From Streptomyces sp. Tu 3180 (lineage in GTDB: Bacteria; Actinomycetota; Actinomycetes; Streptomycetales; Streptomycetaceae): a DNA stretch of 64,000 nt. A program made the translations under genes and the position numbers. The stretch's first letter is position 1. Every line of letters starts with the position of its first letter. The stretch is taken from assembly GCF_009852415.1 (NCBI RefSeq), contig NZ_WOXS01000002.1, positions 6,612,001-6,676,000 of the forward strand, written 5' to 3'. Of the stretch, positions 26,532 through 41,426 are shown in pieces. Below the pieces are notes generated by a model. It worked only from the letters and a program-made list of their open reading frames with translations, had not been told where the DNA came from and ran no database searches.

Positions 26532-27308
26532 TCACCGGTACACCTTCCCCGGCTCCGCCTCGCCGGGCGCGAGGAGCTGGGGGACCGTCACGAACACGTA
26601 CCCCCGCTTCTTCAGCGCGTCGATGATGCCGGGCACGGCGGGGACGGTCCCGTCGTAGATGTCGTGGAGCAGGATGATGCCGTCGCGGGAGGACTGGGCG
26701 AGGACGCGGCGGGTGATGAGGCCGGAGTCGGTGGTCCGGTAGTCCTTCGCGGTCACGCTCCACAGGACCTCCGCGAGGCCCAGGTCGCGGCAGATCTCGT
26801 GCACGGTGTCGTTCGTGCGGCCCTGCGGCGGGCGCATCAGGGTGGGGCGGCGGCCGGTGAGGCGTTCTATCTCCTCGTTGGGGCGCTCCAGTTCCTCGCG
26901 TATCTCCTCCGGCTCCAGCTCGGTCAGGATCCGGTGGGTCCAGGTGTGACCGGCCACCTCGTGCCCCTCCTCGGCCATCCGCGCGACGAGCTCGGGGTAC
27001 CTCTCGATGTGCCGCTCGCCCAACAGGAAGAAGGTCGCCGGGACCTGTTCCCGCTTCAGGATGTCCAGCAGCCGCGTGGAGTGCTCGCTCGGCCCCGCGT
27101 CGAAGGTGAGCGCGATGCACTTGGCCTCGCGGCAGTCGACGGTGCCGAACCGGGCCCGTGCGTCCGCGGACCGGACGGCGCTGGGGGCGGTGGTCTCCAT
27201 CCGCGTGCAGCCGCCCAGCGCCGACGTCACGGCCGCGACCGCCAGCACGCTCGCCACGGCCCGGAACGCGGCTCCCGGTCTTTTCATCTTCCTGGTCGGA
27301 GAAGGCAT
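26532..27308 (-). CDS. Lipoprotein polysaccharide deacetylase (NodB domain)
   Basis: It probably removes acetyl groups from cell-wall or surface glycans outside the membrane. From ATG at 27308 the product is 258 residues with a signal peptide and lipobox (SALGGC), so the protein should be lipid-anchored. The NodB domain shows LTFDAGPSEH (motif 1), HTWTH (motif 2, metal-binding His pair), RPPQGRTN (motif 3) and ILLHDI near the end. Motif 1 reads FDAGP rather than FDDGP, a substitution I have seen in actinobacterial members. ATG 27287 and GTG 27323 are alternative starts; none has a good ribosome site. It is divergent from the glycan operon, which suggests a shared role. Confidence 0.85.
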   Translation of the reverse strand: MPSPTRKMKRPGAAFRAVASVLAVAAVTSALGGCTRMETTAPSAVRSADARARFGTVDCREAKCIALTFDAGPSEHSTRLLDILKREQVPATFFLLGERHIERYPELVARMAEEGHEVAGHTWTHRILTELEPEEIREELERPNEEIERLTGRRPTLMRPPQGRTNDTVHEICRDLGLAEVLWSVTAKDYRTTDSGLITRRVLAQSSRDGIILLHDIYDGTVPAVPGIIDALKKRGYVFVTVPQLLAPGEAEPGKVYR

Positions 27309-27314
27309 GCCGGG

Positions 27315-27348
27315 ACTGTACACAGCGTTTATACGCGCGATGTATAGT
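27315..27348. promoter_or_regulatory. Inverted repeat at the deacetylase promoter
   Basis: ACTGTACA (27315-27322) and TGTATAGT (27341-27348) form an 8-bp inverted repeat with one mismatch and an 18-nt spacer. The region is unusually AT-rich (TTTATACGCGCGATGTATAG). It lies at the start codon of the deacetylase gene and probably overlaps its promoter, so it may bind a regulator. The alternative is a plain AT-rich promoter. Confidence 0.45.
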
Positions 27349-27513: not shown

Positions 27514-27720
27514 GTGAGCGAACGCCCCCGGCGCAGGGTCCTGGTGGCCGGCGGGGCGGGACGCGCCGGATCCCGCCTGTGCGCACGGCCGGCCGGGGCC
27601 GGCACCGAGATCGTGTGCCTGGACGACCTGGCCACCGGCTCCCGGGCCGACGTCGCCGAGCCGGAGCGGTACCGCGGCTTTCGTTTCGTCCGCGCCGACG
27701 CCGCCGGCCCCGACGCCCGG
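27514..27720 (+). pseudogene. Remnant of an NAD-dependent sugar epimerase/dehydratase gene
   Basis: A GTG with a good ribosome site (GGGGAGGGACCCC before it) opens a frame reading RRVLVAGGAGRAGSRLC, then EIVCLDDLATGSRADVAE and GFRFVRADA. These match, in order, the Rossmann nucleotide-binding start (normally GGAGFLGS), the second strand with the NAD-contacting Asp, and the GFRFVRAD strand of extended SDR enzymes such as UDP-glucose epimerase or UDP-glucuronate decarboxylase. After about residue 65 the likeness stops and the frame runs as Arg/Pro/Ala sequence into the next gene. The catalytic YxxxK region is absent. It looks like a truncated, decayed sugar-nucleotide gene at the head of the glycan operon. 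Confidence 0.6.
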
Positions 27721-27977
27721 CCGGCCCGGGAGCGGCTCGGCCGGCGGCCCCGGGCCGGCCGGAGCGAGGGCCTGGGGCGCACCATCGGCCGGTTCACGCG
27801 GGCGGTGGCCGCCTGGGCCCGCCGGCCGGCCCGCCCCGCGCCGTCGCCGCCGTCCGAACCCATTGGCCGGATCGTTTCGCTCCCTCACCGTCCGGGGCCG
27901 CCGACCGGCCCGATCCGTGCCGTCGTCGCAGGTCGGAGACGGGTGCATAAGGCTGTAAATATGGACATATCAATGCG

Positions 27978-28004
27978 AGTTGTCTCCAAGTGTTTGAGAC
28001 AACT
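27978..28004. promoter_or_regulatory. Operator-like inverted repeat in an AT-rich promoter island upstream of the glycan operon
   Basis: AGTTGTCTC (27978-27986) and GAGACAACT (27996-28004) form a perfect 9-bp inverted repeat with a 9-nt spacer. It ends 60 bp before the carbamoyltransferase start. The stretch 27940-28010 is much richer in A/T (GCATAAGGCTGTAAATATGG) than anything around it, as expected for the operon promoter. The rest of 27721-28064 holds no gene I recognise. Confidence 0.6.
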
Positions 28005-28064
28005 GCGGTGCGGCACTCGCGTCCCGAGAGCACCACATGTATCGCAGGGACGGAGCACACCCCC

Positions 28065-29702
28065 ATGCGCATCCTTGGTATCAACGCCCTCTTCCACGAC
28101 CCCGCCGCCGCCCTGGTCGTCGACGGCCGGACCGTGGCCGCGGCCGAGGAGGAGCGCTTCAGCCGGCGCAAGCACGGCAAGCGGCCCCTGCCGTTCTCCG
28201 CCTGGGAACTGCCCGAGCGATCCGCGCACTGGTGCCTGGAGCAGGCGGGCCTCACCCCCGCCGGCCTGGACGCCGTCACCTACTCCTTCGACCCGGCGCT
28301 GGCCCGGCCCGCCCGCGACATGGGCCTGGACGACCCCTGGGACCCGCTGCGCCTGGAGTACGCGCGCCGCGCCCCCGAGTTCCTCGCCGAGGCCCTGCCC
28401 GGCCTCGACCCCGCCCGGGTCGTCTTCGTCCCCCACCACGTCGCCCACGCCGCCTCCGCCGGACCGGCCTCGCCGCACCCCGACAGCGCCGTCCTCGTCC
28501 TCGACGGCCGCGGCGAGTCCGCCTCCCACCTGGCCGGCCGCTACCGCGACGGCAAGCTCGACACCCTCGCCACCCAGGCGCTGCCCGACTCCCTCGGCCT
28601 GGTCTACGAGGAGCTCACCGCCCACCTCGGCTTCCTGCGCAGCAGCGACGAGTACAAGGTGATGGCCCTCGCCTCCTACGGCGCCCCGCGCCACCTGGCC
28701 CGCCTGCGGGAGGACGTCCACCCCACCGGCCACGGCGGCTTCCGCGCCCACGGCGTCGACTGGGCCGCCCTCGCCCCGCCCCGCGCCGGGGACGAACCCT
28801 GGACCCAGGACCACGCGGACCTGGCCGCCAGCGCCCAGGCGGTCCTGGAGGAGGTGCTGCTGGAGCTCGTGCACTGGCTGCACCGCGAGGCCGGCGGCGA
28901 CGCCCTCACCATGGCCGGCGGCGTCGCGCTGAACTGCGTCGCCAACTCGGCGATCGCCGCGCGCGGCCCGTACCGGCACGTGTGGGTGCAGCCCGCCGCC
29001 GGTGACGCCGGCACCGCGCTCGGCGGCGCCCTGCACGTGGCCGCGCAGGAGATCACCCCCGAGCCCATGCCCGGCGCCGACCTCGGCCGCGGCTGGAGCG
29101 ACGACGAACTGCGCGCCTGGCTCGAGCAGGCCGCGGTCCCCTACGAGGAGCCCGACGACATCGCCGAGACCGTCGCCGCGGAACTCGCCCGGGACGGCGT
29201 CGTCGCCTGGTTCCAGGGCCGCAGCGAGTACGGGCCGCGCGCCCTCGGGCACCGCTCCCTGCTCGCCCACCCGGGCCGCGCCGAGAACCTGGAACGGCTC
29301 AACCACGTCAAGGGCCGCGAGGAGTTCCGGCCCGTCGCGCCCATGGTCCTCGCCGACCGCGCCGCCGAGCTGTTCTCCCGCGGCCCGGTCCCCAGTCCGT
29401 ACATGCTCTTCGTCCACGACGTCGCCCCCGAGTGGCGCGAGCGGATCCCGGCCGTCGTCCACGTCGACGGCACCGCCCGCATCCAGACCGTCGAGGAGCG
29501 CCGGGAACCCCTGGTCGCGCGGATGCTGCGCGGCTTCGAACGGCGCACCGGACTGCCCGTGGTCGTCAACACCAGCCTCAACACCGCCGGCCGGCCGATG
29601 GTCGACGACCCGCGCGACGCCCTGGAGTGCTTCGGCTCCGCCCCGGTGGACCTGCTGGCGATCGGGCCGTACGCGGTGCGCAGGGGGAGGGCCTTCGGAT
29701 GA
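28065..29702 (+). CDS. O-carbamoyltransferase (NodU/CmcH/TobZ family)
   Basis: These enzymes move a carbamoyl group from carbamoyl phosphate, via carbamoyl-AMP, to a hydroxyl of a sugar or antibiotic. The 545 residues have the Kae1-like N-terminal domain starting MRILGINALFHDPAAALVVDG. The metal-binding HHVAH motif lies at 124-128, with SSDEYKVMALA and the GGVALNCVANSAIA segment further on. The C-terminal domain is NodU-type (EYGPRALGHRSLLA; LPVVVNTSLNTAGRPMVDD). It is the first intact gene of a tightly overlapping glycan operon, so its acceptor is probably a surface sugar, possibly a heptose; that is inference. The start at 28065 begins the conserved domain; GGGACGGAG lies upstream. Confidence 0.9.
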   Translation: MRILGINALFHDPAAALVVDGRTVAAAEEERFSRRKHGKRPLPFSAWELPERSAHWCLEQAGLTPAGLDAVTYSFDPALARPARDMGLDDPWDPLRLEYARRAPEFLAEALPGLDPARVVFVPHHVAHAASAGPASPHPDSAVLVLDGRGESASHLAGRYRDGKLDTLATQALPDSLGLVYEELTAHLGFLRSSDEYKVMALASYGAPRHLARLREDVHPTGHGGFRAHGVDWAALAPPRAGDEPWTQDHADLAASAQAVLEEVLLELVHWLHREAGGDALTMAGGVALNCVANSAIAARGPYRHVWVQPAAGDAGTALGGALHVAAQEITPEPMPGADLGRGWSDDELRAWLEQAAVPYEEPDDIAETVAAELARDGVVAWFQGRSEYGPRALGHRSLLAHPGRAENLERLNHVKGREEFRPVAPMVLADRAAELFSRGPVPSPYMLFVHDVAPEWRERIPAVVHVDGTARIQTVEERREPLVARMLRGFERRTGLPVVVNTSLNTAGRPMVDDPRDALECFGSAPVDLLAIGPYAVRRGRAFG

Positions 29703-30706
29703 CGTCGTACGCCGTCGTGATCCCCACCCTGGTGCGGGACACCCTCGCCGACTGCCTCGCTGCGCTGGCCGCCGCGAACGGGCCGCACCCCGACGCGATC
29801 GTCCTCGTCGACGACCGGCGGCCCGGCTCCGGTCCCGGCCCCGGGGTGCTGGACCACGCGCTGAGCGTCCTCGGCGACCTGCGCGAACGCACCACCGTCC
29901 TCACCGGCGGGGGCCGCGGGCCCGCCGCCGCCCGCAACACCGGGCTGCGCACCGTCACCGCGCCCTGGGTCGCCTTCCTCGACGACGACGTCCAGGTCGG
30001 CCCGCACTGGTGCGCCCAGCTCGTCCAGGACCTCGAGGAGGCGTCCCCCGACACCGCCGGCGTCCAGGGCGTCATCACCGTGCCGCTGCCCGGCGGACGC
30101 CGCCCCACCGACTGGGAACGCGGCACCGCCGGCCTCGCCCGGGCCCACTGGATCACCGCCGACATGGCCTACCGCACCGAGGCCCTCGAGGAGGTCGGCG
30201 GCTTCGACGAGCGCTTCCCGCGCGCCTTCCGCGAGGACGCCGACCTCGCGCTGCGGCTCCTCGACGCCGGCTGGCGCGTCCGCCAGGGCCGGCGCACCAC
30301 CCTGCACCCCGTGCGCCCCGTCTCCCGCTGGGCGTCGGTGGGGCAGCAGCGCGGCAACGCCGACGACGCCCTGATGCGGCGCCTGCACGGACCCGGCTGG
30401 TGGGACAAGGCGGTCGCGCCGCGCGGCCGGATCCGCCGCCACGCGGCGATCACCGCCGCCGGTGCGGCCGCCTGCGCCCTCGCCCTCACCGGGCGCCGCC
30501 GGGCGGCCGCCGCCTGCGCCCTCGGCTGGGCCGCCGGGACCGCCGAGTTCGCCCGCGCCCGCATCGCCCCCGGGCCGCGCACCCGCGACGAGGTGACGGA
30601 CATGCTGGCCACCAGCGTGCTCATCCCGCCCGCCGCGACCTGGCACCGGCTGGCCGGGGCCTGGCGCCACCGGCACGCACCCGCCTGGCCGGAGGCGGCC
30701 CGGTGA
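29699..30706 (+). CDS. Glycosyltransferase family 2
   Basis: The 335 residues have a GT-A fold: SYAVVIPTLVRDTLADCLAALA at the N-terminus, IVLVDDR, AARNTGL and the metal-binding DxD-type FLDDDV. The acceptor-side motif is RAFREDADLALRLL (ED motif). A C-terminal hydrophobic stretch (ITAAGAAACALALTGRR) may touch the membrane. It overlaps the carbamoyltransferase by 4 nt (ATGA), and GGGGGAGGG precedes the ATG. It should use a nucleotide-activated sugar on the cytoplasmic side; donor unknown. Confidence 0.88.
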   Translation: MTSYAVVIPTLVRDTLADCLAALAAANGPHPDAIVLVDDRRPGSGPGPGVLDHALSVLGDLRERTTVLTGGGRGPAAARNTGLRTVTAPWVAFLDDDVQVGPHWCAQLVQDLEEASPDTAGVQGVITVPLPGGRRPTDWERGTAGLARAHWITADMAYRTEALEEVGGFDERFPRAFREDADLALRLLDAGWRVRQGRRTTLHPVRPVSRWASVGQQRGNADDALMRRLHGPGWWDKAVAPRGRIRRHAAITAAGAAACALALTGRRRAAAACALGWAAGTAEFARARIAPGPRTRDEVTDMLATSVLIPPAATWHRLAGAWRHRHAPAWPEAAR

Positions 30707-31368
30707 GCCGGGCGAACCCGGGGCGCCCGGTGCGGGCGGTGCTGTTCGACCGCGACGGCACCCTCGTCCACGACGTCCCCTACAACGCCGACCCCGAGCG
30801 GGTGCGCCCCGTCGAGGGCGCCCGCGAGGCGCTCGACGCGCTGCGCGCCCGCTCCGTGCGCACCGGCGTCGTCACCAACCAGTCCGGCGTCGCCCGCGGA
30901 CTGCTCACCGACGCCGACGTCCGCCGCGTCAACCACCGCGTCGACGAACTCCTCGGCCCCTTCGACGTGTGGGCGGTCTGCCCGCACGGGCCCGACGACG
31001 GCTGCCCCTGCCGCAAACCCCGGCCCGGCATGATCCTGTGGGCGGCCGGGCGGATCCGCACGGACCCGGCCGACTGCGTCGTCATCGGCGACATCGGCGC
31101 CGACGTCGAGGCCGCCCGCCGGGCCGGCGCCCACGGCATCCTCGTCCCCACCCCGCGGACCCGCCCCGAGGAGACGGCCGCCGCCGCACACGTGGCGCCG
31201 GACCTCGCGACCGCGGTGCGCGCGGTGCTGGACGGACTGCCGCACGACCGGGACGCGGCCGCCGCACCGCCCGTCGCGGACCGCGCGGGGAAGACACCGC
31301 CGCGGGACGGACGCGCGGGCGTCTCCGTGCCCCGCGCGGAGCGCCCCGGACCGGGGAGGCGCGCGTGA
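30703..31368 (+). CDS. gmhB: D-glycero-D-manno-heptose 1,7-bisphosphate 7-phosphatase (GmhB-like HAD enzyme)
   Basis: It removes the 7-phosphate from heptose 1,7-bisphosphate, the step between the two HldE activities. The 221 residues carry the HAD motif DRDGT (D16, D18), TNQSGVARG and the GmhB zinc loop C93-x-H95-x5-C101-x-C103 (CPHGPDDGCPC), then RKPRPGM and the last HAD motif VVIGDIGADVEAA. About 40 extra Arg/Pro-rich residues follow the domain. The related histidinol-phosphatase domain is possible, but gmhA and hldE in the same operon favour GmhB. The GTG start overlaps the previous stop (GTGA). Confidence 0.85.
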   Translation: MSRANPGRPVRAVLFDRDGTLVHDVPYNADPERVRPVEGAREALDALRARSVRTGVVTNQSGVARGLLTDADVRRVNHRVDELLGPFDVWAVCPHGPDDGCPCRKPRPGMILWAAGRIRTDPADCVVIGDIGADVEAARRAGAHGILVPTPRTRPEETAAAAHVAPDLATAVRAVLDGLPHDRDAAAAPPVADRAGKTPPRDGRAGVSVPRAERPGPGRRA

Positions 31369-32363
31369 AGGCCCTGGTCACCCGCCTCGACAACTTCGGC
31401 GACGTCCTGCTCGCCGGACCCGCCGTGCGCGCCGTCGCCGCCCGGGCCGACACCGTCACGCTGCTGTGCGGACCGCACGGGGCCCCCGCCGCCCGGCTGC
31501 TGCCCGGCGTGGACGAGGTCCTGGTCTGGGACGCCCCCTGGGCCGGCTTCCAGCCGCCCCCGGTCCGCCGCGAGGAGATCGACGGACTCGTCGCCGCCGT
31601 CACCGCCGTGGAGGCCGACACCGCGCTGATCCTCACCTCCTTCCACCAGTCCCCGCTGCCCACCGCCCTGCTGCTGCGCCTGGCCGGGATCCGGTTCCTC
31701 GCCGCCGACAGCGAGGACTACCCCGGCTCCCTCCTCGACGTGCGCCACCACCGCGCCCCGCACGCCCACGAGGCCGAGGCCGCGCTCGACCTCGCCGAGG
31801 CCGCCGGTTTCCCCCGGGCCGACGACGGACGGCTGCGGGTGCTCCCGCCGCCCCCGGTCGAGGAGCTGACCGGCCCGGCCGGCTACGTCGTCGTCCACCC
31901 CGGCGTCAGCGTGCCCGCCCGCGCCTGGAGCCCCGAGCGGTGCGCGCAGGCGGTGCGCGAACTCACCGCCGCGGGCCGCCGGGTGGTGGTCACCGGCGGC
32001 GCGGGGGAGCGGGACCTGACCGCGTACGTCGCCGGCGACCGGGCCCTCGACCTCGGCGGCCGCACCGGCGCCGCCGAACTCGCCGGAGTGCTCGCCGGGG
32101 CCGCCTGCGCCGTCACCGGCAACACCGGGCCCGCGCACCTCGCCGCCGCCGTCGGCACCCCGGTGGTGTCCCTGTTCGCGCCGGTCGTCCCGGCCGAGCG
32201 GTGGCGGCCGTACGGCGTGCCGTACGTGCTGCTCGGCGACCAGCGGGCGCCGTGCGCCGGCACCCGGGCCCGGCAGTGCCCCGTGCCCGGCCACCCGTGC
32301 CTGGACGACGTGACCGCGCTCGACGTCGTCGCCGCCGTCGACAAGCTCGTGGAGGTGGCATGA
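31365..32363 (+). CDS. Glycosyltransferase family 9 (heptosyltransferase-like)
   Basis: GT9 enzymes transfer heptose from ADP-heptose in LPS synthesis. The 332 residues begin with the GT9 signature (TRLDNFGDVLLAGPAVRAVA). They contain VVVHPGVSVPARAWSPERCAQAV, the sugar-nucleotide site, and the C-terminal TGNTGPAHLAAAVGTPVVSLFAPVVPAERW. A Cys-containing loop (CAGTRARQCPVPGHPCLDD) is typical of some members. The ADP-heptose genes in the same operon make ADP-heptose a likely donor. The GTG start overlaps the previous gene by 4 nt. Confidence 0.88.
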   Translation: MKALVTRLDNFGDVLLAGPAVRAVAARADTVTLLCGPHGAPAARLLPGVDEVLVWDAPWAGFQPPPVRREEIDGLVAAVTAVEADTALILTSFHQSPLPTALLLRLAGIRFLAADSEDYPGSLLDVRHHRAPHAHEAEAALDLAEAAGFPRADDGRLRVLPPPPVEELTGPAGYVVVHPGVSVPARAWSPERCAQAVRELTAAGRRVVVTGGAGERDLTAYVAGDRALDLGGRTGAAELAGVLAGAACAVTGNTGPAHLAAAVGTPVVSLFAPVVPAERWRPYGVPYVLLGDQRAPCAGTRARQCPVPGHPCLDDVTALDVVAAVDKLVEVA

Positions 32364-33310
32364 GGATCCTGCTCTGGCACGTGCACGGGTCGTGGACCAC
32401 GGCCTTCGTGCAGGGCCCGCACACCTACGTCGTCCCCGTCACCCCGGACCGCGGACCCGACGGACTGGGCCGGGCCCGCACCTTCGACTGGCCCGACTCG
32501 GTCGTCGAGGTGCCCCCGGAACGCCTGCGCGAGACGGACATCGACGTCGTCGTGCTGCAACGGCCGCACGAACCCGCCCTCGTCGACCGGTGGCTGGGCC
32601 GCCGCCCGCCCCTGGTCTACCTGGAGCACAACGCCCCGCACGGGAACGTGCCCGACACCCGCCACCCGGCCGCGGACATCCCCGGCGCCACCCTCGTCCA
32701 CGTCACCCACTTCAACCGCCTGATGTGGGACGCCGGTCCCGCCCCGGCCACCGTCGTCGAGCACGGCATCGTCGACCCCGGTCCGCTGTGGACCGGCGAA
32801 CTGCCGCACGCCGCCGTCGTCGTCAACGAGCCGGTGCGGCGCGGCCGCACCACCGGCACCGACCTGCTGCCGGTCTTCGCCGAGGCGGCCCCCCTCGACG
32901 TCTTCGGCATGGGCACCGAAGGTCTCGCCGGCCACCTCGGGCTGCCCGCCGGCCGCTGCCGCGCGCACGAACTGACGCAGGCCGACCTGCACACGGAGAT
33001 GGCCCGCCGGCGCGTCTACGTCCACCCCGTGCGCTGGACCTCCCTCGGCCTGTCCCTGCTGGAGGCCATGCACCTGGGCATGCCCGTCGTCGCGCTCGCC
33101 ACCACCGAGGTCACCGAGGCCGTGCCGCCCGGGGCCGGAGTGGTCTCCAACCGGATCGACGTACTGACCGAAGCCGTGAGGGACTTCGTCGCCGACCCGC
33201 TGCGCGCCCGCCTGACCGGCGAGGGCGCACGGGCGGCGGCGCTGTCCCGCTACGGGCTGTCCCGCTTCCTGGACGACTGGGAGCGGCTGCTGAAGGAGGT
33301 GACTCGATGA
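32360..33310 (+). CDS. Glycosyltransferase (GT-B fold, GT4-like)
   Basis: The 316 residues are shorter than most GT4 enzymes. The N-terminal half is divergent (RILLWHVHGSWTTAFVQGPHTYVVPVTPDRGPDG, YLEHNAPHG). The C-terminal half shows the retaining GT-B pattern: VYVHPVRWTSLGLSLLEAMHLGMPVVALATTEVTEAV, with E in the LSLLEAMHLG nucleotide-sugar motif. Donor and acceptor are unknown. The ATG overlaps the upstream stop (ATGA) after GGAGGTGGC. Confidence 0.82.
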   Translation: MRILLWHVHGSWTTAFVQGPHTYVVPVTPDRGPDGLGRARTFDWPDSVVEVPPERLRETDIDVVVLQRPHEPALVDRWLGRRPPLVYLEHNAPHGNVPDTRHPAADIPGATLVHVTHFNRLMWDAGPAPATVVEHGIVDPGPLWTGELPHAAVVVNEPVRRGRTTGTDLLPVFAEAAPLDVFGMGTEGLAGHLGLPAGRCRAHELTQADLHTEMARRRVYVHPVRWTSLGLSLLEAMHLGMPVVALATTEVTEAVPPGAGVVSNRIDVLTEAVRDFVADPLRARLTGEGARAAALSRYGLSRFLDDWERLLKEVTR

Positions 33311-34524
33311 GGATCGCCATGGTGTCCGAGCACGCGAGCCCGCTCGCCGCGCTCGGCGGCGTCGACGCCGGGGGCCAGAACGTGTACGTGGCGCGGCTCA
33401 GCGAGGAGCTGGCCCGGCGCGGCCACCGCGTCACGGTGTACACCCGCCGCGACGCGGCCGGCCTGCCCGACCGGGTGGCGCTGCCCGGCGGCGCGGTCGT
33501 GGAGCACGTGCCGGCCGGCCCGCCCGAGGCCGTCCCCAAGGACGAACTGCTGCCCCACATGCCCGCCTTCGGCGCGTACCTCGCCCGGGCCTGGCGGCGG
33601 GAGAGGCCGGACGTCGTGCACGCCCACTTCTGGATGTCGGGCCTGGCCGCACGGACCGGCGCCCGCCCGTACGGCGTCCCGGTGGTGCAGACGTTCCACG
33701 CCCTCGGCACCGTCAAGCGCCGCCACCAGGGGTGGCGGGACACCAGCCCGCCCGAACGCATCGCCGCCGAGCGGCAGATCGGACGCGGCTGCGCGCGCGT
33801 CCTCGCCACCTGCGGCGACGAGGTGCGCGAACTGGCCGAGATGGGCGTGGACCGCAGCCGGGTGTCGGTGGTGCCCTGCGGCGTGGACGCCGACCACTTC
33901 CGCCCCGGCGCCGAGGGGGCGGGCACACCGCCGCGCCGCGCGCGGCACCGGCTGCTCGCCTGCGGCCGGCTGGTCCGCCGCAAGGGCTACGACCGGGCCG
34001 TCCGCGCGCTGACGGCGATCCCGGACGCCGAACTCGTCGTCGCCGGGGGGCCCGCCACCGGACGACTGGGCCGCGACCCGGAGGCGCGGCGGCTGTGGCA
34101 CCTGGCGCACCGCGTCGGGGTGGCCGACCGGGTCCGGCTGCTCGGCGCGGTCGACCCGGCCGACATGCCGGCCCTCATCGGCAGCGCCGACCTGGTGCTG
34201 TGCACCCCCGACTACGAGCCGTTCGGCATCGTGCCGCTGGAGGCGATGGCGTGCGCCGTGCCGGTCGTCGCCACCGCCGTCGGCGGCCACCGCGACAGCG
34301 TCGCCCACGGCACCACCGGCCGGCTGGTCCCGCCCGAGGACCCCGGGGCGCTCGCCGCCGCCGTGCGCGAACTCCTCGCCGAGGACGGACTGCGCCGCCG
34401 CTACGGCGCCGCCGGACGCGAACGCGTCCTGGCCCACTACACGTGGAGCCGCGTCGCCGACGGCGTCGAGGACGTGCACCGCCGGGTCCTGACCGCACAC
34501 GCGACCCCGAAGGAGGTGGCCTGA
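33307..34524 (+). CDS. Glycosyltransferase family 4 (MshA-like)
   Basis: The 405 residues follow the classic GT4 layout. The N-terminal donor-loop region is MVSEHASPLAALGGVDAGGQNVYVARLSEELARRGHRVTVYTRR; DVVHAHFWMSG comes next, and the linker shows SVVPCGVDADHFRP. The C-terminal EX7E motif is EPFGIVPLEAMACAVPVVATAVGG. It resembles sucrose-phosphate-synthase-like and MshA-like enzymes; the donor is not predictable. It is part of the overlapping operon (ATGA with the previous gene, TGATG with gmhA). Confidence 0.9.
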   Translation: MRIAMVSEHASPLAALGGVDAGGQNVYVARLSEELARRGHRVTVYTRRDAAGLPDRVALPGGAVVEHVPAGPPEAVPKDELLPHMPAFGAYLARAWRRERPDVVHAHFWMSGLAARTGARPYGVPVVQTFHALGTVKRRHQGWRDTSPPERIAAERQIGRGCARVLATCGDEVRELAEMGVDRSRVSVVPCGVDADHFRPGAEGAGTPPRRARHRLLACGRLVRRKGYDRAVRALTAIPDAELVVAGGPATGRLGRDPEARRLWHLAHRVGVADRVRLLGAVDPADMPALIGSADLVLCTPDYEPFGIVPLEAMACAVPVVATAVGGHRDSVAHGTTGRLVPPEDPGALAAAVRELLAEDGLRRRYGAAGRERVLAHYTWSRVADGVEDVHRRVLTAHATPKEVA

Positions 34525-35150
34525 TGACCGTCCACCCTCCCGTCACCGGTCACTGCGACGAACTCCAGGACGCCCTGGGGGCGTTCCGCGCCTCCGCCCA
34601 CACCACCGCACGGTGGGGCGAACGGCTCGCCGAGGTGCTCCCCGGCGGGGGCCGGCTGCTGGCCGCGGGCAACGGCGGCAGCGCGGCCCAGGCGCAGCAC
34701 CTGACCGCGGAACTCGTCGGCCGCTACCGCGACGACCGGCCCGCGTTCTCCGCGATCGCCCTGCACGCCGACACCTCCAGCACCACCGCCATCGCCAACG
34801 ACTACGGCGTCGACGCGGTGTTCGCCCGCCAGGTCCGGGCCCACGGCCGCCCCGGCGACGTGCTGATGCTGCTGTCCACCAGCGGCGCCAGCGCCAACCT
34901 GCTGTCCGCCGCCGACGCCGCCCGCGCGGCCGGCCTGCACGTGTGGGCCCTGACCGGGCCCGCCCCCAACCCGCTGATGGCGGGCAGCGACGAGTCGCTG
35001 TGCGTGGAGGCGCCCACGGCGGCCACCGTCCAGGAACTCCACCTGGTGGCGGTGCACATGGTGTGCGCGGCGTTCGACGCGGCGCTGGAGAGCGGGAGGC
35101 GGCGGAACCCGGACCCGCGGCACCGGGGCGGCCGGGGCGACGGGAGGTGA
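34524..35150 (+). CDS. gmhA: Sedoheptulose 7-phosphate isomerase (GmhA-like SIS protein)
   Basis: GmhA turns sedoheptulose 7-phosphate into D-glycero-D-manno-heptose 7-phosphate, the first step to ADP-heptose. The 208 residues have the SIS phosphate-binding GNGGSAA (49-55), the family's active-site H59 and E63 (AQHLTAELVGRY), AIANDYGVDAVFARQV, the second phosphate loop STSGASANL, and VQELHLVAVHMVC with the conserved Gln/His. The match to GmhA/DiaA is close, and hldE directly downstream supports GmhA. It has a tail of ~20 Arg/Gly-rich residues. AGGAGGTGGCCTG precedes the ATG. Confidence 0.9.
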   Translation: MTVHPPVTGHCDELQDALGAFRASAHTTARWGERLAEVLPGGGRLLAAGNGGSAAQAQHLTAELVGRYRDDRPAFSAIALHADTSSTTAIANDYGVDAVFARQVRAHGRPGDVLMLLSTSGASANLLSAADAARAAGLHVWALTGPAPNPLMAGSDESLCVEAPTAATVQELHLVAVHMVCAAFDAALESGRRRNPDPRHRGGRGDGR

Positions 35151-35151
35151 C

Positions 35152-36513
35152 ATGAACGGCAAGGCACCCCTCGTCGTGGTCGGCGACGCCCTGCTGGACC
35201 GCGACCTGACCGGCCGGGCCGAACGGCTCGCGCCCGACGCGCCCGTCCCGGTGGTCGACGACTACGGGGAGCGGACCCGCCCCGGCGGCGCCGCGCTCAC
35301 CGCGTACCTCGCCGCACGCGACGGCCGCGAGGTCACCCTCGTCGCCGGCGTGGGCGACGACCCCGCGAGCCGTGAACTGCGGCGGCTCCTCGACCCCTGG
35401 GTCACCCTGGTCCCGCTGCCGCTGACCGGGCCGCTCCCGGAGAAGAGCCGCGTCCTGGCCGCGGACCGCCCGGTGGCCCGCCTGGACCGGGGGGACGGCC
35501 GCGCCCGCGAGGCCACCGACCGGGCCCGCGAGACCGTCCGCGCCGCGCCCGCCGTCCTCGTCTCCGACTACGGCCGGGGCGCCGCCGACGCCCTCCGGGA
35601 CGTCCTGGCCGCCCGCCCGCCGCTGCTGTGGGACCCGCATCCGCGCGGCGGCCCGCCGGTGCCCGGCACCCGGCTGGTCACCCCGGCCGAGAAGGAGGCG
35701 CTCGCCCTCGCGCCGGACGGCGCGACCCCGCGCCGGAACCTGGCCGCCGCCGCCCACAGCGCCGCCGCGCTCGTGCGGCACTGGAAGGCCGCCGCCGTCG
35801 CGGTCACCCTCGGCGCGCGCGGCGCCCTCCTCTCCTACGGCGAGCACCCCCTGCTCGTGCCCGCCTCCGCCGCCCACCACGGCGACAGCTGCGGCGCCGG
35901 CGACCGGTTCGCCGCGACGGCGGCCGGGCTGCTCGCCGACGGCGCCCTGGTGGGCGAGGCCGTCGAGGCCGCCGTCGCCGCGGCGACCGACTTCGTCGGC
36001 GCGGGCGGCGCGGGCGCCCTGCCCCGGCCGGACGCCGCGCTCCCGCCGGCGGACGGCGACGACCCGTTCGCCCTCGCGGACCGGATCCGCACCGCCCACG
36101 GCACCGTCGTCGCGGCGGGCGGCTGCTTCGACCTCCTGCACGCCGGGCACGTCGGGCTGCTCCAGGCCGCCCGGGAGCTCGGCGACTGCCTGGTGGTCTG
36201 CGTCAACTCCGACGCCTCGGTGCGCCGCCGCAAGGGCGCGGGCCGCCCGGTCAACCCGCTCGCCGACCGCGTCCGCGTGCTGCGCGCCCTGGCCTGCGTC
36301 GACGCCGTCGCGGTCTTCGACGAGGACACCCCCGAACGCCTCCTGGCCGACCTGCGCCCCGACGTCTGGGTCAAGGGCGGCGACTACGCGGCCGCCGACC
36401 TCCCCGAGGCGGTGCTGCTGGAGGAGTGGGGCGGCCAGGCGGTCCTCCTGCCGTACCTGGACGGCCGCTCGTCGACCGGGATGCTGGAACGCGCCGCGGA
36501 GGGGACGCGATGA
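35152..36513 (+). CDS. hldE: Bifunctional heptose 7-phosphate kinase / heptose 1-phosphate adenylyltransferase (HldE)
   Basis: HldE phosphorylates heptose 7-phosphate at C1 and, after GmhB acts, joins heptose 1-phosphate to AMP. The 453 residues are a full fusion. The PfkB kinase domain (~1-300) has GGAALTAYLAARDG and the catalytic GAGDRF motif (DSCGAGDRFAATAAG). The adenylyltransferase domain (~315-453) has GCFDLLHAGHVGLL (HxGH), VCVNSDASVRRRKG, PVNPLADRV and DVWVKGGDY. It lies 1 nt after gmhA, with GGGAGGTGAC before the ATG, and overlaps the next gene by 4 nt. No HldD epimerase is present in the window, so the product would be the D,D form. Confidence 0.92.
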   Translation: MNGKAPLVVVGDALLDRDLTGRAERLAPDAPVPVVDDYGERTRPGGAALTAYLAARDGREVTLVAGVGDDPASRELRRLLDPWVTLVPLPLTGPLPEKSRVLAADRPVARLDRGDGRAREATDRARETVRAAPAVLVSDYGRGAADALRDVLAARPPLLWDPHPRGGPPVPGTRLVTPAEKEALALAPDGATPRRNLAAAAHSAAALVRHWKAAAVAVTLGARGALLSYGEHPLLVPASAAHHGDSCGAGDRFAATAAGLLADGALVGEAVEAAVAAATDFVGAGGAGALPRPDAALPPADGDDPFALADRIRTAHGTVVAAGGCFDLLHAGHVGLLQAARELGDCLVVCVNSDASVRRRKGAGRPVNPLADRVRVLRALACVDAVAVFDEDTPERLLADLRPDVWVKGGDYAAADLPEAVLLEEWGGQAVLLPYLDGRSSTGMLERAAEGTR

Positions 36514-38273
36514 CCGGACCGCGCCGCGCCGTGCCGCGGCCCGGCGGCGAGACCCCCACGGCCGACGGGCCGGGGCCGCCCCGGCCCGAGGAGACCGCCG
36601 CCCCCGGTCCGTCCCCCGGCCAGGCACCGGCCGCATGGGACGACGCGCCCGCGTCGGCTGTCGGCCCCGCGCCAGGAGGGGAGCCGGTGCCGGACGTGCC
36701 CGGTGCCGGCCGCGCCGAACCGGAACCGGGCGGGGGCGGGGCCCCGCCGTCCGGACGGCGGGGCCCCGCCGCTGCACCGCGGACGCACCCCGCCCCGTCG
36801 GCGCGGTCCGCGGCCCCGCGGCCCCGCCTGCTGGCTCTGCGCGCGCTGGGCCTCGGCGATCTGCTCGCCGGTGTCCCCGCGCTGCGGGCGCTGCGCCGGG
36901 CGTTCCCCGGGCACGAGCTGGTGCTGGCCGTGCCCGGTGAGCTCGCGCCGGTCGCCGGCGCCACGGGAGCCGTGGACCGGGTGCTGCCCGCCTCCGCACC
37001 CGGGCGGGCGGTCCCCCGCTCGCTCGGCTGGACCGGGCCTCCCCCGGACGTCGCCGTCGACCTGCACGGCAACGGACCGCCCAGCCACCGCCTGCTGAGC
37101 GGCCTCGCCCCCGCCCGGCTCCTCGCGTTCGCGCACCCCGGCACCCCGGAGGTCGAGGGCCCGGCCTGGTACGCGGAGGAGCACGAGCGCGACCGCTGGT
37201 GCCGGCTGCTGCGCTGGTACGGCATCGACGCCGACCCCGCCGACCTGCTGCTGCCCCCGCCGGGCGCCGCGTCCCCCGCCCCCGGCGCCGTCGTCCTGCA
37301 CCCCGGCGCGGGCGCCCCCGCCCGCTGCTGGCCCGTCGAGCGGTACGCGGCCGTCGCGACCGCACTGCGCGCACGCGGGCTGCGGGTCGTGGTCACCGGG
37401 GGAGCCGACGAGCCGGACCTGGTGGCGAGGCTCGCCAAGCAGGCCCGCCTGCCCGACACCGACGTCTTCGGCGGCGGCCTCCCCCTCGACCGGCTCCGCG
37501 CCCTGGTCGCCGGCGCGCGCGCCGTCGTCAGCGGCGACACCGGCATCGCGCACCTCGCGGTCGCCCACGCCGCCCCCACCGTCACCCTCTTCGGCCCGGT
37601 CCCGCCCCGCCGCTGGGGCCCGCCCGCGCACCCGCGGCACATCGCCCTGTGGCGGGGACCGGAGGGCGACCCGCACGGCCGCCGGCCCGACCCGGCGCTG
37701 CTGCGCCTGACCCCCGGCGACGTCCTGGACGCCCTCGACCGACTGCCCGCCCCCGCCACCCGGGAGGGGAGAACACACCATGACCACTCCGCCCACGGAC
37801 GGCCGCCTCGGCGTCGTCATCGCCACCCGCGACCGCTGCGACCGGCTGGCCGTCACCCTGCGCCACCTGCTCGCCCTGCCCGAGCGGCCCGAGATCCTCG
37901 TCGCCGACAACGCCTCCACCGACGGCACCCGCGCCCTGCTCGCCCGCGACTTCCCCGAGGTCCGCGTGCTGGCGCTCCCCGCCAACCACGGCGCCCTCGC
38001 CCGCAACCACGGCGCCCGCGCCCTCGACACCCCCTACGTGGCGTTCAGCGACGACGACTCCTGGTGGGCGCCCGGCGCCCTCGCCCGGGCGGCCGAGCTG
38101 TTCGACGCCCACCCCCGGCTCGGTCTGATCGCCGCCCGCACCCTCGTCGGCCCGGCCGCCGACCCCGATCCGCTCAACGAGGTCCTCGCCCGTTCCCCGC
38201 TCGGCCCGGCCACCGACCTCCCCGGCACCCAGGTGCTCGGCTTCCTCGCCTGCGGCGCCGTGGTGCGGCGTGA
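36510..38273 (+). CDS. Glycosyltransferase family 9 with apparent loss of the usual stop codon
   Basis: The ORF is 587 residues. Residues ~1-105 are Pro/Ala/Gly-rich filler containing a 36-bp DNA palindrome. The GT9 domain spans ~106-420 (LALRALGLGDLLAGVPALRALRRAFPG; VVLHPGAGAPARCWPVERYAAVA; VSGDTGIAHLAVAHAAPTVTLFGPVPPRRWG). The fold ends near DALDRLPAPATREG, yet the frame runs on for 167 Arg/Pro-rich residues inside the next gene, a 494-nt overlap. The codon AGA at 37770-37772 is one base from TGA and sits 8 nt before the next ATG, where a stop would be expected. The natural protein is probably ~420 residues, extended here by a mutation or a sequencing error. Heptose transfer is likely but unproven. 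Confidence 0.8.
   Translation: MTGPRRAVPRPGGETPTADGPGPPRPEETAAPGPSPGQAPAAWDDAPASAVGPAPGGEPVPDVPGAGRAEPEPGGGGAPPSGRRGPAAAPRTHPAPSARSAAPRPRLLALRALGLGDLLAGVPALRALRRAFPGHELVLAVPGELAPVAGATGAVDRVLPASAPGRAVPRSLGWTGPPPDVAVDLHGNGPPSHRLLSGLAPARLLAFAHPGTPEVEGPAWYAEEHERDRWCRLLRWYGIDADPADLLLPPPGAASPAPGAVVLHPGAGAPARCWPVERYAAVATALRARGLRVVVTGGADEPDLVARLAKQARLPDTDVFGGGLPLDRLRALVAGARAVVSGDTGIAHLAVAHAAPTVTLFGPVPPRRWGPPAHPRHIALWRGPEGDPHGRRPDPALLRLTPGDVLDALDRLPAPATREGRTHHDHSAHGRPPRRRHRHPRPLRPAGRHPAPPARPARAARDPRRRQRLHRRHPRPARPRLPRGPRAGAPRQPRRPRPQPRRPRPRHPLRGVQRRRLLVGARRPRPGGRAVRRPPPARSDRRPHPRRPGRRPRSAQRGPRPFPARPGHRPPRHPGARLPRLRRRGAA
36735..36770. repeat. Perfect 36-bp palindrome inside the second GT9 gene
   Basis: The sequence is its own reverse complement from 36735 to 36770, centred on TCCGGA, with nested GGGGCCCC blocks in both arms. 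It encodes part of the low-complexity N-terminus of the GT9 protein. As RNA it would form a very stable hairpin between hldE and the GT9 catalytic region and could reduce downstream expression. It may also be a recombination-prone site. Confidence 0.8.
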
Positions 38274-38658
38274 GGCCCACCTCGACGCGGGCGGCTTCCA
38301 CCGGCTGCTGTCCATCGGCGGCGAGGAGACCCTGCTCGCCTACGACCTGGCCGCCCGCGGCTGGGGCGTCACCCACTGCCCCGACGTCGTCGCCCACCAC
38401 CATCCCGCCCCCGCGCCCCGCCCCGGCCGCCCGGCGATCCAGCGCCGCAACGAACTCCTCACCGCCTGGCTGCGGCGCCCCGTCCCCCACGCCCTCGCCC
38501 GCACCGGGGCCCTCGCGACCGAGGCCCGCGGCGACGACCACGCCCGGCGCGCGCTGCGCGAGACCCTCGCCCGGCTGCCGGCCGCCCTGCGCGAGCGCAG
38601 GCCCCTGCCCCCGCACGTGGAGCGGGCCGCCCGGATGCTGGAGGGGAGGGCCGTGTGA
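37780..38658 (+). CDS. Glycosyltransferase family 2 (first of a tandem pair)
   Basis: The 292 residues are a GT-A enzyme: LGVVIATRDRCDRLAVTLRHLLALPERPEILVADNASTDGT, ARNHGARALDTPYVAFSDDDSWW (DDD metal site), then IGGEETLLAYDLAARGWG. It is clearly paralogous to the next gene, with the same LAELPERP-, DDDSWW-, GGEE- and C-terminal RVLPxxVE-like segments. GGGAGGGGAG precedes the ATG. Its 5' half is overlapped by the extended GT9 frame; its own codon usage is normal, so this is the real frame here. Confidence 0.88.
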   Translation: MTTPPTDGRLGVVIATRDRCDRLAVTLRHLLALPERPEILVADNASTDGTRALLARDFPEVRVLALPANHGALARNHGARALDTPYVAFSDDDSWWAPGALARAAELFDAHPRLGLIAARTLVGPAADPDPLNEVLARSPLGPATDLPGTQVLGFLACGAVVRREAHLDAGGFHRLLSIGGEETLLAYDLAARGWGVTHCPDVVAHHHPAPAPRPGRPAIQRRNELLTAWLRRPVPHALARTGALATEARGDDHARRALRETLARLPAALRERRPLPPHVERAARMLEGRAV

Positions 38659-39551
38659 CGGACCCCCGGACGACCGTCGTCGTCATCACCCACAACCGGT
38701 GCGGCGAACTCCTGCGCACCCTCGGCCACCTCGCCGAACTCCCCGAGCGGCCACCGGTGATCGTCACCGACAACGGCTCCACGGACGGCACCGCCCGGGC
38801 CGTCGCCCGTCACCACCCCCGGGTGCGGCTGCTGCGCCCCGGCCGCAACCTCGGCGCCGTCGGCCGCAACCTCGCGGTGCGCGAGGTCCGCACGCCGTAC
38901 GTCGCCTTCTGCGACGACGACTCCTGGTGGTCGCCCGGCTCCCTGGCCGGCGCCGCCGACCTGCTCGACCGGCACCCGGCGCTCGGCTCGGTCACGGCAC
39001 GGATCATCGTCGAACCGGACGGCACCGACGACCCGATCGTCCGCGAACTGCGCGACTCGCCCGTGCCCGGCCCGTCCTGGCTGCCCGGACCGGCCCTCGG
39101 TTCGTTCCTCGCCGCCGCCACCGTCCTGCGCACCGGCGCCTTCAGGACCGCCGGCGGCTTCCACCCGAAACTCTGGCTCGGCGGGGAGGAGGAACTGCTC
39201 GCCGCGGACCTGGCGGCCGACGGCTGGTGGCTCACCTACGCCGATCACCTGACGGTCCACCACCAGGCCTCCACGGCACGGGACCCCACGCTGCGCCGGA
39301 TGCACGGCATCCGCAACACCCTGTGGTTCACCTGGCTGCGCCGCCCGGCCGGCCCCGCGCTGCGCCGCACCCTGGACCTCGCCCGCACGGTCCCGCGCGA
39401 CACCACCTCCCTGCGCGCCTTCGCCGAGGCGGCGGCCGCCCTGCCCTGGGTCCTGCGCGAACGCCGCGTCCTGCCCCGTGAGGTCGAGTCCCGGCTGCGC
39501 CTGCTGGAACCGGCCCAGCGCACCTCCACGGCCCGCCGCTACACGGGCTGA
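38655..39551 (+). CDS. Glycosyltransferase family 2 (second of a tandem pair)
   Basis: The 298 residues carry TTVVVITHNRCGELLRTLGHLAELPERP, VTDNGSTDGTARAV, GRNLGAVGRNLAVREVRTPYVAFCDDDSWW, LGGEEELLAADLAADGWW and a C-terminal helical part ending REVESRLRLLEPAQRT. It overlaps the preceding paralogue by 4 nt (GTGA) and is the last gene of the 11-gene operon, followed by a very strong terminator. The pair probably arose by duplication and may add two related sugars. Confidence 0.88.
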   Translation: MTDPRTTVVVITHNRCGELLRTLGHLAELPERPPVIVTDNGSTDGTARAVARHHPRVRLLRPGRNLGAVGRNLAVREVRTPYVAFCDDDSWWSPGSLAGAADLLDRHPALGSVTARIIVEPDGTDDPIVRELRDSPVPGPSWLPGPALGSFLAAATVLRTGAFRTAGGFHPKLWLGGEEELLAADLAADGWWLTYADHLTVHHQASTARDPTLRRMHGIRNTLWFTWLRRPAGPALRRTLDLARTVPRDTTSLRAFAEAAAALPWVLRERRVLPREVESRLRLLEPAQRTSTARRYTG

Positions 39552-39594
39552 CCCGCGGGCCCGCCACCGCACGGGCCGGCACACCGCACGGCGG

Positions 39595-39630
39595 CGGGGC
39601 CCGCCCACCGGCACCGGTGGGCGGGCCCCG
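39595..39630. terminator. Strong terminator at the end of the glycan operon
   Basis: A perfect 17-bp inverted repeat (arms 39595-39611 and 39614-39630) with a 2-nt loop lies 44 nt after the last glycosyltransferase stop and 38 nt from the stop of the convergent small gene, so it can serve both. Confidence 0.85.
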
Positions 39631-39668
39631 TCACCGCGTGCGCGACGCGACACGGTCGTGGCGCGGAC

Positions 39669-40302: not shown

Positions 40303-41232
40303 CTAACCGGGGGCGGCGCGGGACGCCAGCACCTCCACGAGCCGGTCCGCGCCGTCCGGCACACGGTCCTCCCGGAACGCGTCGCGGACCTGCCGGGCGG
40401 CCACCCGGCCCGAGGTCAGGCACCAGTCCCACCACCGCTCCAGCCGGCGCTCGTCCAGCTGCTCGGCGCCCAGCAGCGCGGGCCAGCCGCAGGCGCGGGC
40501 CTGCGCGGTCACCTTCGCGCCGCCCGCGACCGGGTCCACGGCCAGCACCGGCGTGCCGACCCGCAGCGCGAGCACCAGCCCGTGCAGCCGGTCGGTGACG
40601 ACGAGGTCGAGGCGGGCCAGCACCGACTGCACCTGCGCGGGCGTCGCGCTCAGGTGCCAGTCGTGCGTGTCCAGCCGGGTCTCCAGCTCCAGCCGGGCGC
40701 AGTCCTTGCCGGCCAGCCAGCGCGTCACCCGGTCCGCGACCTGCCCGTGCCGCCGCCGCTGTCCGTACTCGTGCTGCCCGTGGGTGAGGATCACCCCGAC
40801 CACGGGCCGGGCGGGCACCGCCGGAGCGCGGGCCGCCAGGTCCTCGGACGGCTCGCTGCCGGGGGCATCCCGCGCCAGCACGCGGTGGAACCCGGTCACG
40901 GCCGTGCCCTCGGGGTCGACCACGGAGGTCCCCACGGCGATCCGCACGCAGTGCGCGAAGCGCCGGTGCAGCTCCTCGACCTGCGGCCCGTGCAGCGGGC
41001 CGCACACGAACACCAGGTGGGAGTAGTCGCGGGGCCGTACGTCGTCCAGGTGCCGGGCGTCCGGCAGGAAGCCGGGGCTCCAGACGACGTCGTAGGGGAT
41101 CCGGGCCCGGCGCAGCACCTCCTCCACCCGGTGCAGCGCCAGCACGTCCCCGGCGGTCGCCTCCCCCTCGGGGAAGCTGAACCACCCGGTCAGCAGGACC
41201 CTCTCCGGTCGCGCGGGTTCCGTTCCGTGCAC
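40303..41232 (-). CDS. Polysaccharide pyruvyl transferase family protein
   Basis: Family members transfer pyruvate from phosphoenolpyruvate onto sugars of exopolysaccharides or cell-wall polymers (CsaB/WcaK). From GTG at 41232 the product is 309 residues: VLLTGWFSFPEGEATAGDVLALHRVEEVLRRARIPYDVVWSPG, VFVCGPLHG, and the GT-B-like C-terminal signature DLVVTDRLHGLVLALRVGTPVLAVDPVAGGAKV, in which TDRLHG is characteristic. The start is uncertain (open to 41271, weak ribosome sites). Its place next to the heptose operon on the opposite strand suggests it decorates the same glycan; that is inference. Confidence 0.82.
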   Translation of the reverse strand: MHGTEPARPERVLLTGWFSFPEGEATAGDVLALHRVEEVLRRARIPYDVVWSPGFLPDARHLDDVRPRDYSHLVFVCGPLHGPQVEELHRRFAHCVRIAVGTSVVDPEGTAVTGFHRVLARDAPGSEPSEDLAARAPAVPARPVVGVILTHGQHEYGQRRRHGQVADRVTRWLAGKDCARLELETRLDTHDWHLSATPAQVQSVLARLDLVVTDRLHGLVLALRVGTPVLAVDPVAGGAKVTAQARACGWPALLGAEQLDERRLERWWDWCLTSGRVAARQVRDAFREDRVPDGADRLVEVLASRAAPG

Positions 41233-41426
41233 AGTGCCACCGGGTGCCCCGCTCCGGCGGGGGGCAATCACCTCCCGGGACGGCCGGACGCGGGCCCGGA
41301 CGGCGAGGGACCGCCGGGCCGGGGCCGGGGCCGGCGCCCGCCGTCGGTCCCTTCAGCGGCGGCCTCCCCGGGACGGTGCACCCCTTGCGGACAGAAGGTG
41401 ACCGCAAGCCCCGCTAGCGTGCTGAC

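Follow-up and report, generated by a model that had tools for sequence, protein, structure and literature searches.

The eleven forward-strand genes at positions 28065-39551 of a 64,000-nt stretch of the Streptomyces sp. Tu 3180 genome (contig NZ_WOXS01000002.1; genome size 8.6 Mb; this stretch is the window, to which coordinates refer) are very probably the orthologue of the cwg operon of Streptomyces coelicolor, and would build a carbamoylated, heptose-containing glycan under sigmaE stress control. The operon is already described in S. coelicolor and is not new. Our own contributions, computed or predicted, are the remnant of a twelfth gene (cwgA), predictions of xylose and of the nucleoside triphosphates (NTPs) used, counts of the distribution of the operon, and a conserved cis element.

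In S. coelicolor, the 12-gene cwg operon (sco6179-6190) is predicted to specify a cell-wall glycan, is induced by vancomycin and depends partly on sigmaE (PMC6767563), of which it has been a recognized target since 2002 (Hong et al. 2002, as cited in PMC6767563 and PMC5839063). The sequence of its sigmaE promoter is listed in Table 1 of PMC6767563, where the deacetylase gene sco6178 is listed beside cwg as a further sigmaE target. Other reports give a 1.3 to 4.3-fold rise of cwg expression without ArgR (PMC5839063), induction of cwgA by salt (PMC13011467), and a putative heptosyl transferase as the product of sco6183 (PMC5882110). PMC5839063 names most cwg genes in order; where GmhA and HldE stand here, it lists a phosphoheptose isomerase and a bifunctional synthase, respectively. 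Compared by annotation, rather than by alignment to A3(2), the order sco6179-6190 fits the eleven genes of the window, with matches in order for cwgD (‘dehydratase’, sco6182), cwgE (heptosyl transferase), cwgH (phosphoheptose isomerase) and cwgI (bifunctional synthase). A polysaccharide deacetylase gene lies divergently at the position of sco6178, as it does in 23 of 80 Streptomyces loci, which are the best-scoring of 297 relatives from one HldE scan and lean towards close relatives. Two of these loci (L015 and L020) match the published cwg promoter at 28 of its 29 bases, and the nearest relatives, L003 and L004, match it at 21. Gene order, divergent deacetylase and the cwg promoter in relatives thus point to the operon as the cwg orthologue. 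The two operons differ in that S. coelicolor has twelve genes whereas eleven are found here, with cwgA reduced to a remnant and the promoter matched at 19 of 29 bases in the window.

The initial annotation listed eleven same-strand genes, and all are present with the families and places it gave them: an O-carbamoyltransferase, a GmhB-like phosphatase, GmhA, HldE and seven glycosyltransferases (Table 1). Its description of almost all genes as overlapping or touching holds for most junctions (4-nt overlaps at seven, a 1-nt overlap between the GT4 gene and gmhA, and 1 nt between gmhA and hldE). The second GT9 gene is an exception: its frame reaches no stop ahead of the following gene and stays open to 38273, an overlap of 494 nt; in L003 and L004 it ends with an overlap of 4 nt. 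In the alignment, the window lacks one base of a C-run that L003 and L004 have in this gene, and the codon-position plot departs from the GT9 frame at about 37770. The stop loss is a strain frameshift or a sequence error, and touches the last ~14 codons alone. The second GT9 gene of L041 likewise overruns, by 879 nt. The 17-bp terminator reported after the operon is a hairpin with an 18-bp stem that lacks a T-run, and a terminator scan returned no terminator. The cwgA remnant upstream had been missed in the initial annotation. As for the glycosyltransferase at the cwgF position, its AlphaFold2 model (confidence score, pLDDT, 78.6) finds its best Protein Data Bank (PDB) fold matches in PimB', BshA and TarM.

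Table 1 Features of the cwg-like operon and its surroundings in the window.
Feature	Position	Strand	Evidence
Divergent polysaccharide deacetylase (sco6178 position)	26532..27323	-	PF01522 2e-42
Possible relic of cwg sigmaE promoter	27262..27290	+	19/29 bases of published S. coelicolor promoter
cwgA remnant (UDP-glucuronate-decarboxylase-like short-chain dehydrogenase/reductase)	27514..27813	+	300 bp; tblastn of L003 cwgA
Conserved imperfect palindrome between cwgA and carbamoyltransferase, GAGTTGTCTCCAAGTGTTTGAGACAACTGC	27977..28006	+	30 bp
O-carbamoyltransferase (cwgB position)	28065..29702	+	PF16861 1.9e-64, PF02543 1.3e-48
GT2 glycosyltransferase (cwgC position)	29699..30706	+	PF00535 1e-14
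GmhB-like HAD phosphatase (cwgD position)	30703..31368	+	PRK08942 5.6e-32 (below cut-off), TIGR01656
GT9 heptosyltransferase-family enzyme (cwgE position)	31365..32363	+	PF01075 1.1e-17
GT4-like glycosyltransferase (cwgF position)	32360..33310	+	PF00534 3.9e-10
GT4, MshA-like (cwgG position)	33307..34524	+	PF13439 2.3e-38
GmhA, sedoheptulose 7-phosphate isomerase (cwgH position)	34524..35150	+	PF13580 7.1e-23
HldE, heptose-7-phosphate kinase / heptose-1-phosphate nucleotidyltransferase (cwgI position)	35152..36513	+	TIGR02199 186.8 bits
Second GT9 (cwgJ position)	36510..37779, end uncertain	+	PF01075 6.1e-24
GT2 glycosyltransferase (cwgK position)	37780..38658	+	PF00535 2.2e-22
GT2 glycosyltransferase (cwgL position)	38655..39551	+	PF00535 9.3e-22
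Hairpin 3' of operon, 18-bp stem, 4-nt loop	39593-39632	+	RNA -55 kcal/mol, z -7.2 (39585-39640)
Pyruvyltransferase-like GT-B protein	40303..41271	-	PF04230 5.3e-9, 36.8 bits, cut-off 25.3

The operon is conserved as a unit. The nearest named relatives of its HldE come from a Streptomyces metagenome-assembled genome (98%) and from S. griseomycini (96%). Comparison across Streptomyces genomes, which the initial annotation had proposed, revealed a conserved order: of the 66 Streptomyces loci that span 16 kb or more, 65 keep the first nine genes (carbamoyltransferase to second GT9) in sequence, as do 67 of the full set of 80, and 59 of the 66 keep all eleven. With order kept in 65 of 66 long loci, the grouping is more than chance. 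Among 199 Streptomyces genomes sampled, this strain's own included, HldE was detected in 78 (at 1e-50) and the carbamoyltransferase in 74 (at 1e-150); both occur together in 70 genomes versus 29 expected by chance, HldE alone in 8 and the carbamoyltransferase alone in 4 (Fisher 3e-39, a value that overstates the certainty because related genomes are not independent). HldE matches at E ~1e-11 (149 of 199 genomes at 1e-3) covered the nucleotidyltransferase end alone and were set aside. Four of the genomes (G051, G124, G166 and G195) carry two full-length HldE copies each, with 86% and 61% identity in G124, which suggests coexisting versions of the operon.

At the level of the class, HldE at 1e-40 is present in 93 of the 394 genomes, representing 45 of 137 genera, and the operon core recurs in other families. 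We compared 20 chosen distant loci of 20 kb (L123-L142), counting blastp matches above 60 bits among genes called by our own gene finder, which misses some. Matches were most frequent for GT4 and HldE (19 loci each), followed by the first GT9 (GT9a, 16), GTx (15), GmhA and the second GT9 (GT9b; 13 each), the carbamoyltransferase (11), CwgA (10), GmhB (8), GT2a and GT2b (7 each) and GT2c (3). Where gmhA is not a separate gene, some HldE frames may be fusions of the kind seen in tridomain enzymes, on which Tang et al. reportedly published in 2022. A short-chain dehydrogenase cluster is present in 18 of the 20 distant loci, adjoining hldE in 15, and an aldehyde dehydrogenase cluster in seven.

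The enzyme families for nucleoside diphosphate (NDP)-heptose, GmhA, HldE and GmhB, are all present with catalytic motifs. The nucleotidyltransferase domain of HldE exceeds the TIGR02199 cut-off of 181.5 bits, the sole NCBIfam heptose model passed, and the protein keeps its HxGH and GAGD motifs; DxD and CxH...CxC are readable in the GmhB-like phosphatase. Relatives in the PDB are 5x9q and 4e84 for HldE, the phosphoheptose isomerase 5i01 (3.5e-40) for GmhA, 3l8h (4.4e-21), 4pnh and 2gmw for the phosphatase, and 7xb6, GdmN and TobZ for the carbamoyltransferase. A whole-genome search for HldD gave eight matches, the best at 103.6 bits and none over the TIGR02197 cut-off of 274.6, so D-glycero-D-manno-heptose would be expected and ADP-L,D-heptose is unlikely. 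According to a commentary on Tang et al. 2024 (PMC11461863), an Arg at position 5 of (F/L)xxGxSTT lets such enzymes use CTP or UTP too. The corresponding motif here, YLDGRSST, has the Arg and departs from the consensus at positions 1 and 7; the Arg occurs in 76 of 80 stretches from Streptomyces; two other groups of loci have it in 32 of 36 and 16 of 21 stretches. Since this residue is reported to widen the NTP choice, ADP as the HldE nucleotide is uncertain. Of the earlier proposal that GmhA, HldE and GmhB make ADP-D-glycero-heptose, the heptose activation genes therefore stand and the ADP is in doubt. A role in heptose transfer, which the initial annotation gave for GT9 enzymes of Gram-negative LPS, is similarly provisional for the two GT9s here: both belong to the family (PF01075), from which we infer the transfer, as neither scores over a curated cut-off for heptosyltransferase I, II or III. 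With heptose activation genes, GT9s and an O-carbamoyltransferase in one conserved unit, the carbamoylated heptose-containing glycan or glycolipid of the initial annotation is still the best reading, subject to these uncertainties in nucleotide and transfer.

The twelfth gene would add a further sugar. The cwgA remnant matches residues 1-71 of L003 cwgA at 72% identity, followed by the last ~35 residues; the middle is missing and there is no terminal stop. Of the 80 loci, 70 have an open cwgA frame of 285-340 amino acids ahead of the carbamoyltransferase gene; the remaining ten lie on contigs of 3.2 to 13.4 kb that stop short of cwgA or within it, which rules out a separate class of operons without this gene. 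In S. griseomycini (L004), cwgA is full length but altered at positions kept in the other copies listed. The closest solved relative of L003 CwgA is human UDP-glucuronate decarboxylase (2b69, 7.7e-90; next family 3.8e-39), with which its STSEVYGD and YDESKR stretches align; no NCBIfam family scored over its cut-off. UDP-xylose is, from this similarity, the likely product of CwgA, and the ancestral glycan probably also used xylose. The genome holds three UDP-glucose-dehydrogenase-family matches over cut-off, two of them strong, and a cluster of this family (one member checked by Pfam) occurs in three of the 20 distant loci. The genome also carries an orphan, full-length UDP-glucuronate-decarboxylase-like gene with 66% identity to cwgA (G000:C2:882901-883824; L149:9381-10343); none of the other operon genes has a homologue within the surrounding 20 kb.

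In 43 of 72 upstream regions, that of the window among them, the palindrome upstream of the carbamoyltransferase gene keeps 22 or more of its 30 bases; it was not found at this level where the gap between cwgA and the carbamoyltransferase gene is shorter than about 85 nt. An RNA hairpin was not supported, with many broken pairs over 45 sequences (for example C/A in 11 and A/C in 16), although the window copy alone folds at z -2.6; Rfam gave nothing over gathering scores. The operator of a regulon was rejected, the palindrome being the sole site in the genome at up to three mismatches over the 20-bp core. Our guess is that it serves as a second promoter or as an operator.

The initial annotation saw no flippase, ligase or polymerase gene in the operon, and this was borne out, with no multi-pass membrane protein among the eleven. 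None has more than one hydropathy window over 1.6, and the four that have one have it inside GT-B enzymes; the GT2 at the cwgC position has none in the window copy, one in 14 of 72 cluster genes and two in 1 of 72. We also listed neighbouring proteins with at least four hydrophobic segments in the 80 Streptomyces and 20 distant 20-kb loci, among genes called by the same incomplete gene finder. The distant loci yielded 23, of which two are HldE-type, and the Streptomyces loci 32, in 16 clusters. Those checked by Pfam (16 of 21 distant proteins and one member each of 13 of the 16 Streptomyces clusters) include ABC permeases, MFS, TctA, AI-2E, EamA, antiporter, BrkB, FUSC, transhydrogenase and VTT (DedA-type) proteins and others, with one unmatched; no Wzx, MurJ, Wzy or ligase-type family was found among them. 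The MFS cluster lies near the operon in nine of 80 loci (e.g., L054 60-1313, minus strand), and VTT proteins in two (L137 15605-16279 and L044 15533-16168). DedA-type proteins can move lipid carriers, and the MFS and VTT neighbours are possible leads to export.

Downstream of the operon, the PF04230 protein is a probable partner. Its best PF04230 stretch spans only 38 residues. A gene of this family is found in 49 of the 80 loci, and 40 of the 50 copies, window included, are downstream and 10 upstream of the operon; the association therefore probably does not go back to a single inherited arrangement. The protein's model (pLDDT 92.8) has a GT-B fold; the pyruvyltransferase Pvg1p (5ax7) ranks 28, behind glycosyltransferases, and among the 50 matches listed by VIA-align glycosyltransferases likewise predominate; the protein may nonetheless be a pyruvyltransferase. 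A profile search of the protein's alignment against PDB sequences gave no match. The genome contains four further PF04230 matches.

Several points weigh against identifying the operon as cwg and its product as a heptose glycan. The orthology to sco6179-6190 is drawn from annotation order and promoter. In S. coelicolor, sco6185 (cwgG) is among the most stably transcribed genes (PMC4630627), which sits badly with strong induction. The promoter copy of the window proves little by itself, because its score equals the best of 300 shuffles (maximum 19, mean 15.0), it overlaps the coding start of the deacetylase gene, and operons without the divergent deacetylase score mostly at or near shuffle level; it also lies 252 bp from the start of the cwgA remnant, versus 147 bp in S. 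coelicolor. Curated cut-offs are missed by HldE (PRK11316, 255.3 bits, cut-off 521; kinase domain TIGR02198, 116.1, cut-off 345), by GmhA (TIGR00441, 154.6, cut-off 209.45), by the GmhB-like phosphatase (66.4 versus 149.6) and by both GT9s (33-75 bits for TIGR02193, TIGR02195 and TIGR02201, cut-offs 134.6-185.3). The phosphatase passes the histidinol-phosphatase domain model TIGR01656 (106.1, cut-off 84.15), and the GT9 at the cwgE position has Asn in an NTG motif where Asp is usual, the Asn being kept in at least 6 of 12 aligned rows (one of them NTA). With most heptose enzymes under their cut-offs and a histidinol-phosphatase domain recognized, the substrates could differ. In the open-licence literature, outside which most subscription journals lie, we found no report of the glycan product of cwg, nor of heptose or carbamate in a Streptomyces wall glycan.

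These scores and the Asn would fit a reading in which the enzymes act on another sugar phosphate and no heptose is made. Against this, isomerase, kinase/nucleotidyltransferase, phosphatase and GT9 occur together, the nucleotidyltransferase domain passes its cut-off with both motifs kept, and the PDB relatives include a heptose kinase, a heptose bisphosphatase and a phosphoheptose isomerase; this reading is very unlikely. It is also very unlikely that the operon is decaying and inactive in this strain: the cwgA remnant, the lost GT9 stop and the altered cwgA of S. griseomycini speak for decay, but the remaining ten frames are open and clearly biased by codon position, the GT9 change is confined to its end, and the first intact gene is immediately preceded by a conserved element. 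Less easily dismissed, though still unlikely, is that the product is a small molecule or a glycolipid with heptose in it (a signal, a cofactor-like glycoside or a natural product) and not a glycan bound to the wall. The lack of multi-pass proteins in the operon and of Wzx, MurJ or ligase-type families among its Pfam-checked neighbours would fit such a product, as would the resemblance of the GT4 to the mycothiol enzyme MshA (TIGR03449, 236 bits, cut-off 462.5) and of the GT2s to the mycofactocin enzyme MftF, all below cut-off; ADP-heptose is moreover a precursor of septacidin and hygromycin B in Streptomyces (PMC10221265). However, sigmaE and vancomycin control, seven glycosyltransferases, the deacetylase and the pyruvyltransferase-like neighbour point to the envelope, and no nonribosomal peptide synthetase, polyketide synthase or nucleoside gene was found among the eight flanking proteins scanned by Pfam (23293-43520).

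We favour a cwg-type envelope glycan, for which the gene content suggests the following route. GmhA would isomerise sedoheptulose 7-phosphate, HldE would phosphorylate it, GmhB would remove the 7-phosphate and HldE would add the nucleotide, giving NDP-D-glycero-D-manno-heptose in the cytosol. From this donor, the two GT9s and five other glycosyltransferases may assemble an oligosaccharide that contains heptose, probably on a lipid carrier in the membrane, with a hydroxyl capped by the carbamoyltransferase. CwgA would also supply UDP-xylose in most relatives; in this strain, the unlinked orphan copy may replace it, or xylose may be dropped. Expression would answer cell-envelope stress via sigmaE, the sigmaE and vancomycin control being taken from the literature on S. 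coelicolor. We infer every sugar, as well as lipid carrier, export and attachment.

The Gram-negative lipopolysaccharide (LPS) core obtains its heptose through GmhA-HldE-GmhB-HldD and WaaC/F/Q. The enzyme families for NDP-heptose and GT9 transfer are shared with the operon, but here no HldD scores over cut-off and the GT9s fall below the heptosyltransferase cut-offs. Pseudomonas LPS contains 7-O-carbamoyl heptose (WapO), and there too a carbamoyltransferase goes together with heptosyltransferases; the difference is that no LPS is present here. The septacidin and hygromycin B pathways of Streptomyces likewise lead from sedoheptulose 7-phosphate to an activated heptose (PMC10221265), whereas the present operon is patchy, occurs in multiple families and has seven glycosyltransferases, with no natural-product gene recognized in the scanned flanks.

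More tentatively, and with considerable doubt, cwg may be an ancient actinomycete pathway, of wide but scattered occurrence, that makes a surface glycan under stress. The glycan would contain D,D-manno-heptose, xylose, carbamoyl and possibly a pyruvate ketal; a multi-NTP HldE could provide a CDP- or UDP-heptose donor, and lineages such as this one would vary the glycan by loss of the xylose gene. If this is true, the cwg glycan would be a Gram-positive equivalent of the LPS inner core that has been overlooked. NDP-heptoses are ALPK1 agonists (PMC11461863). Because the gene content predicts D,D-heptose, xylose, carbamate, perhaps pyruvate, and a non-ADP nucleotide donor, the glycan can be searched for directly in S. 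coelicolor, and a heptose glycan in a Gram-positive would bear on glycopeptide stress.

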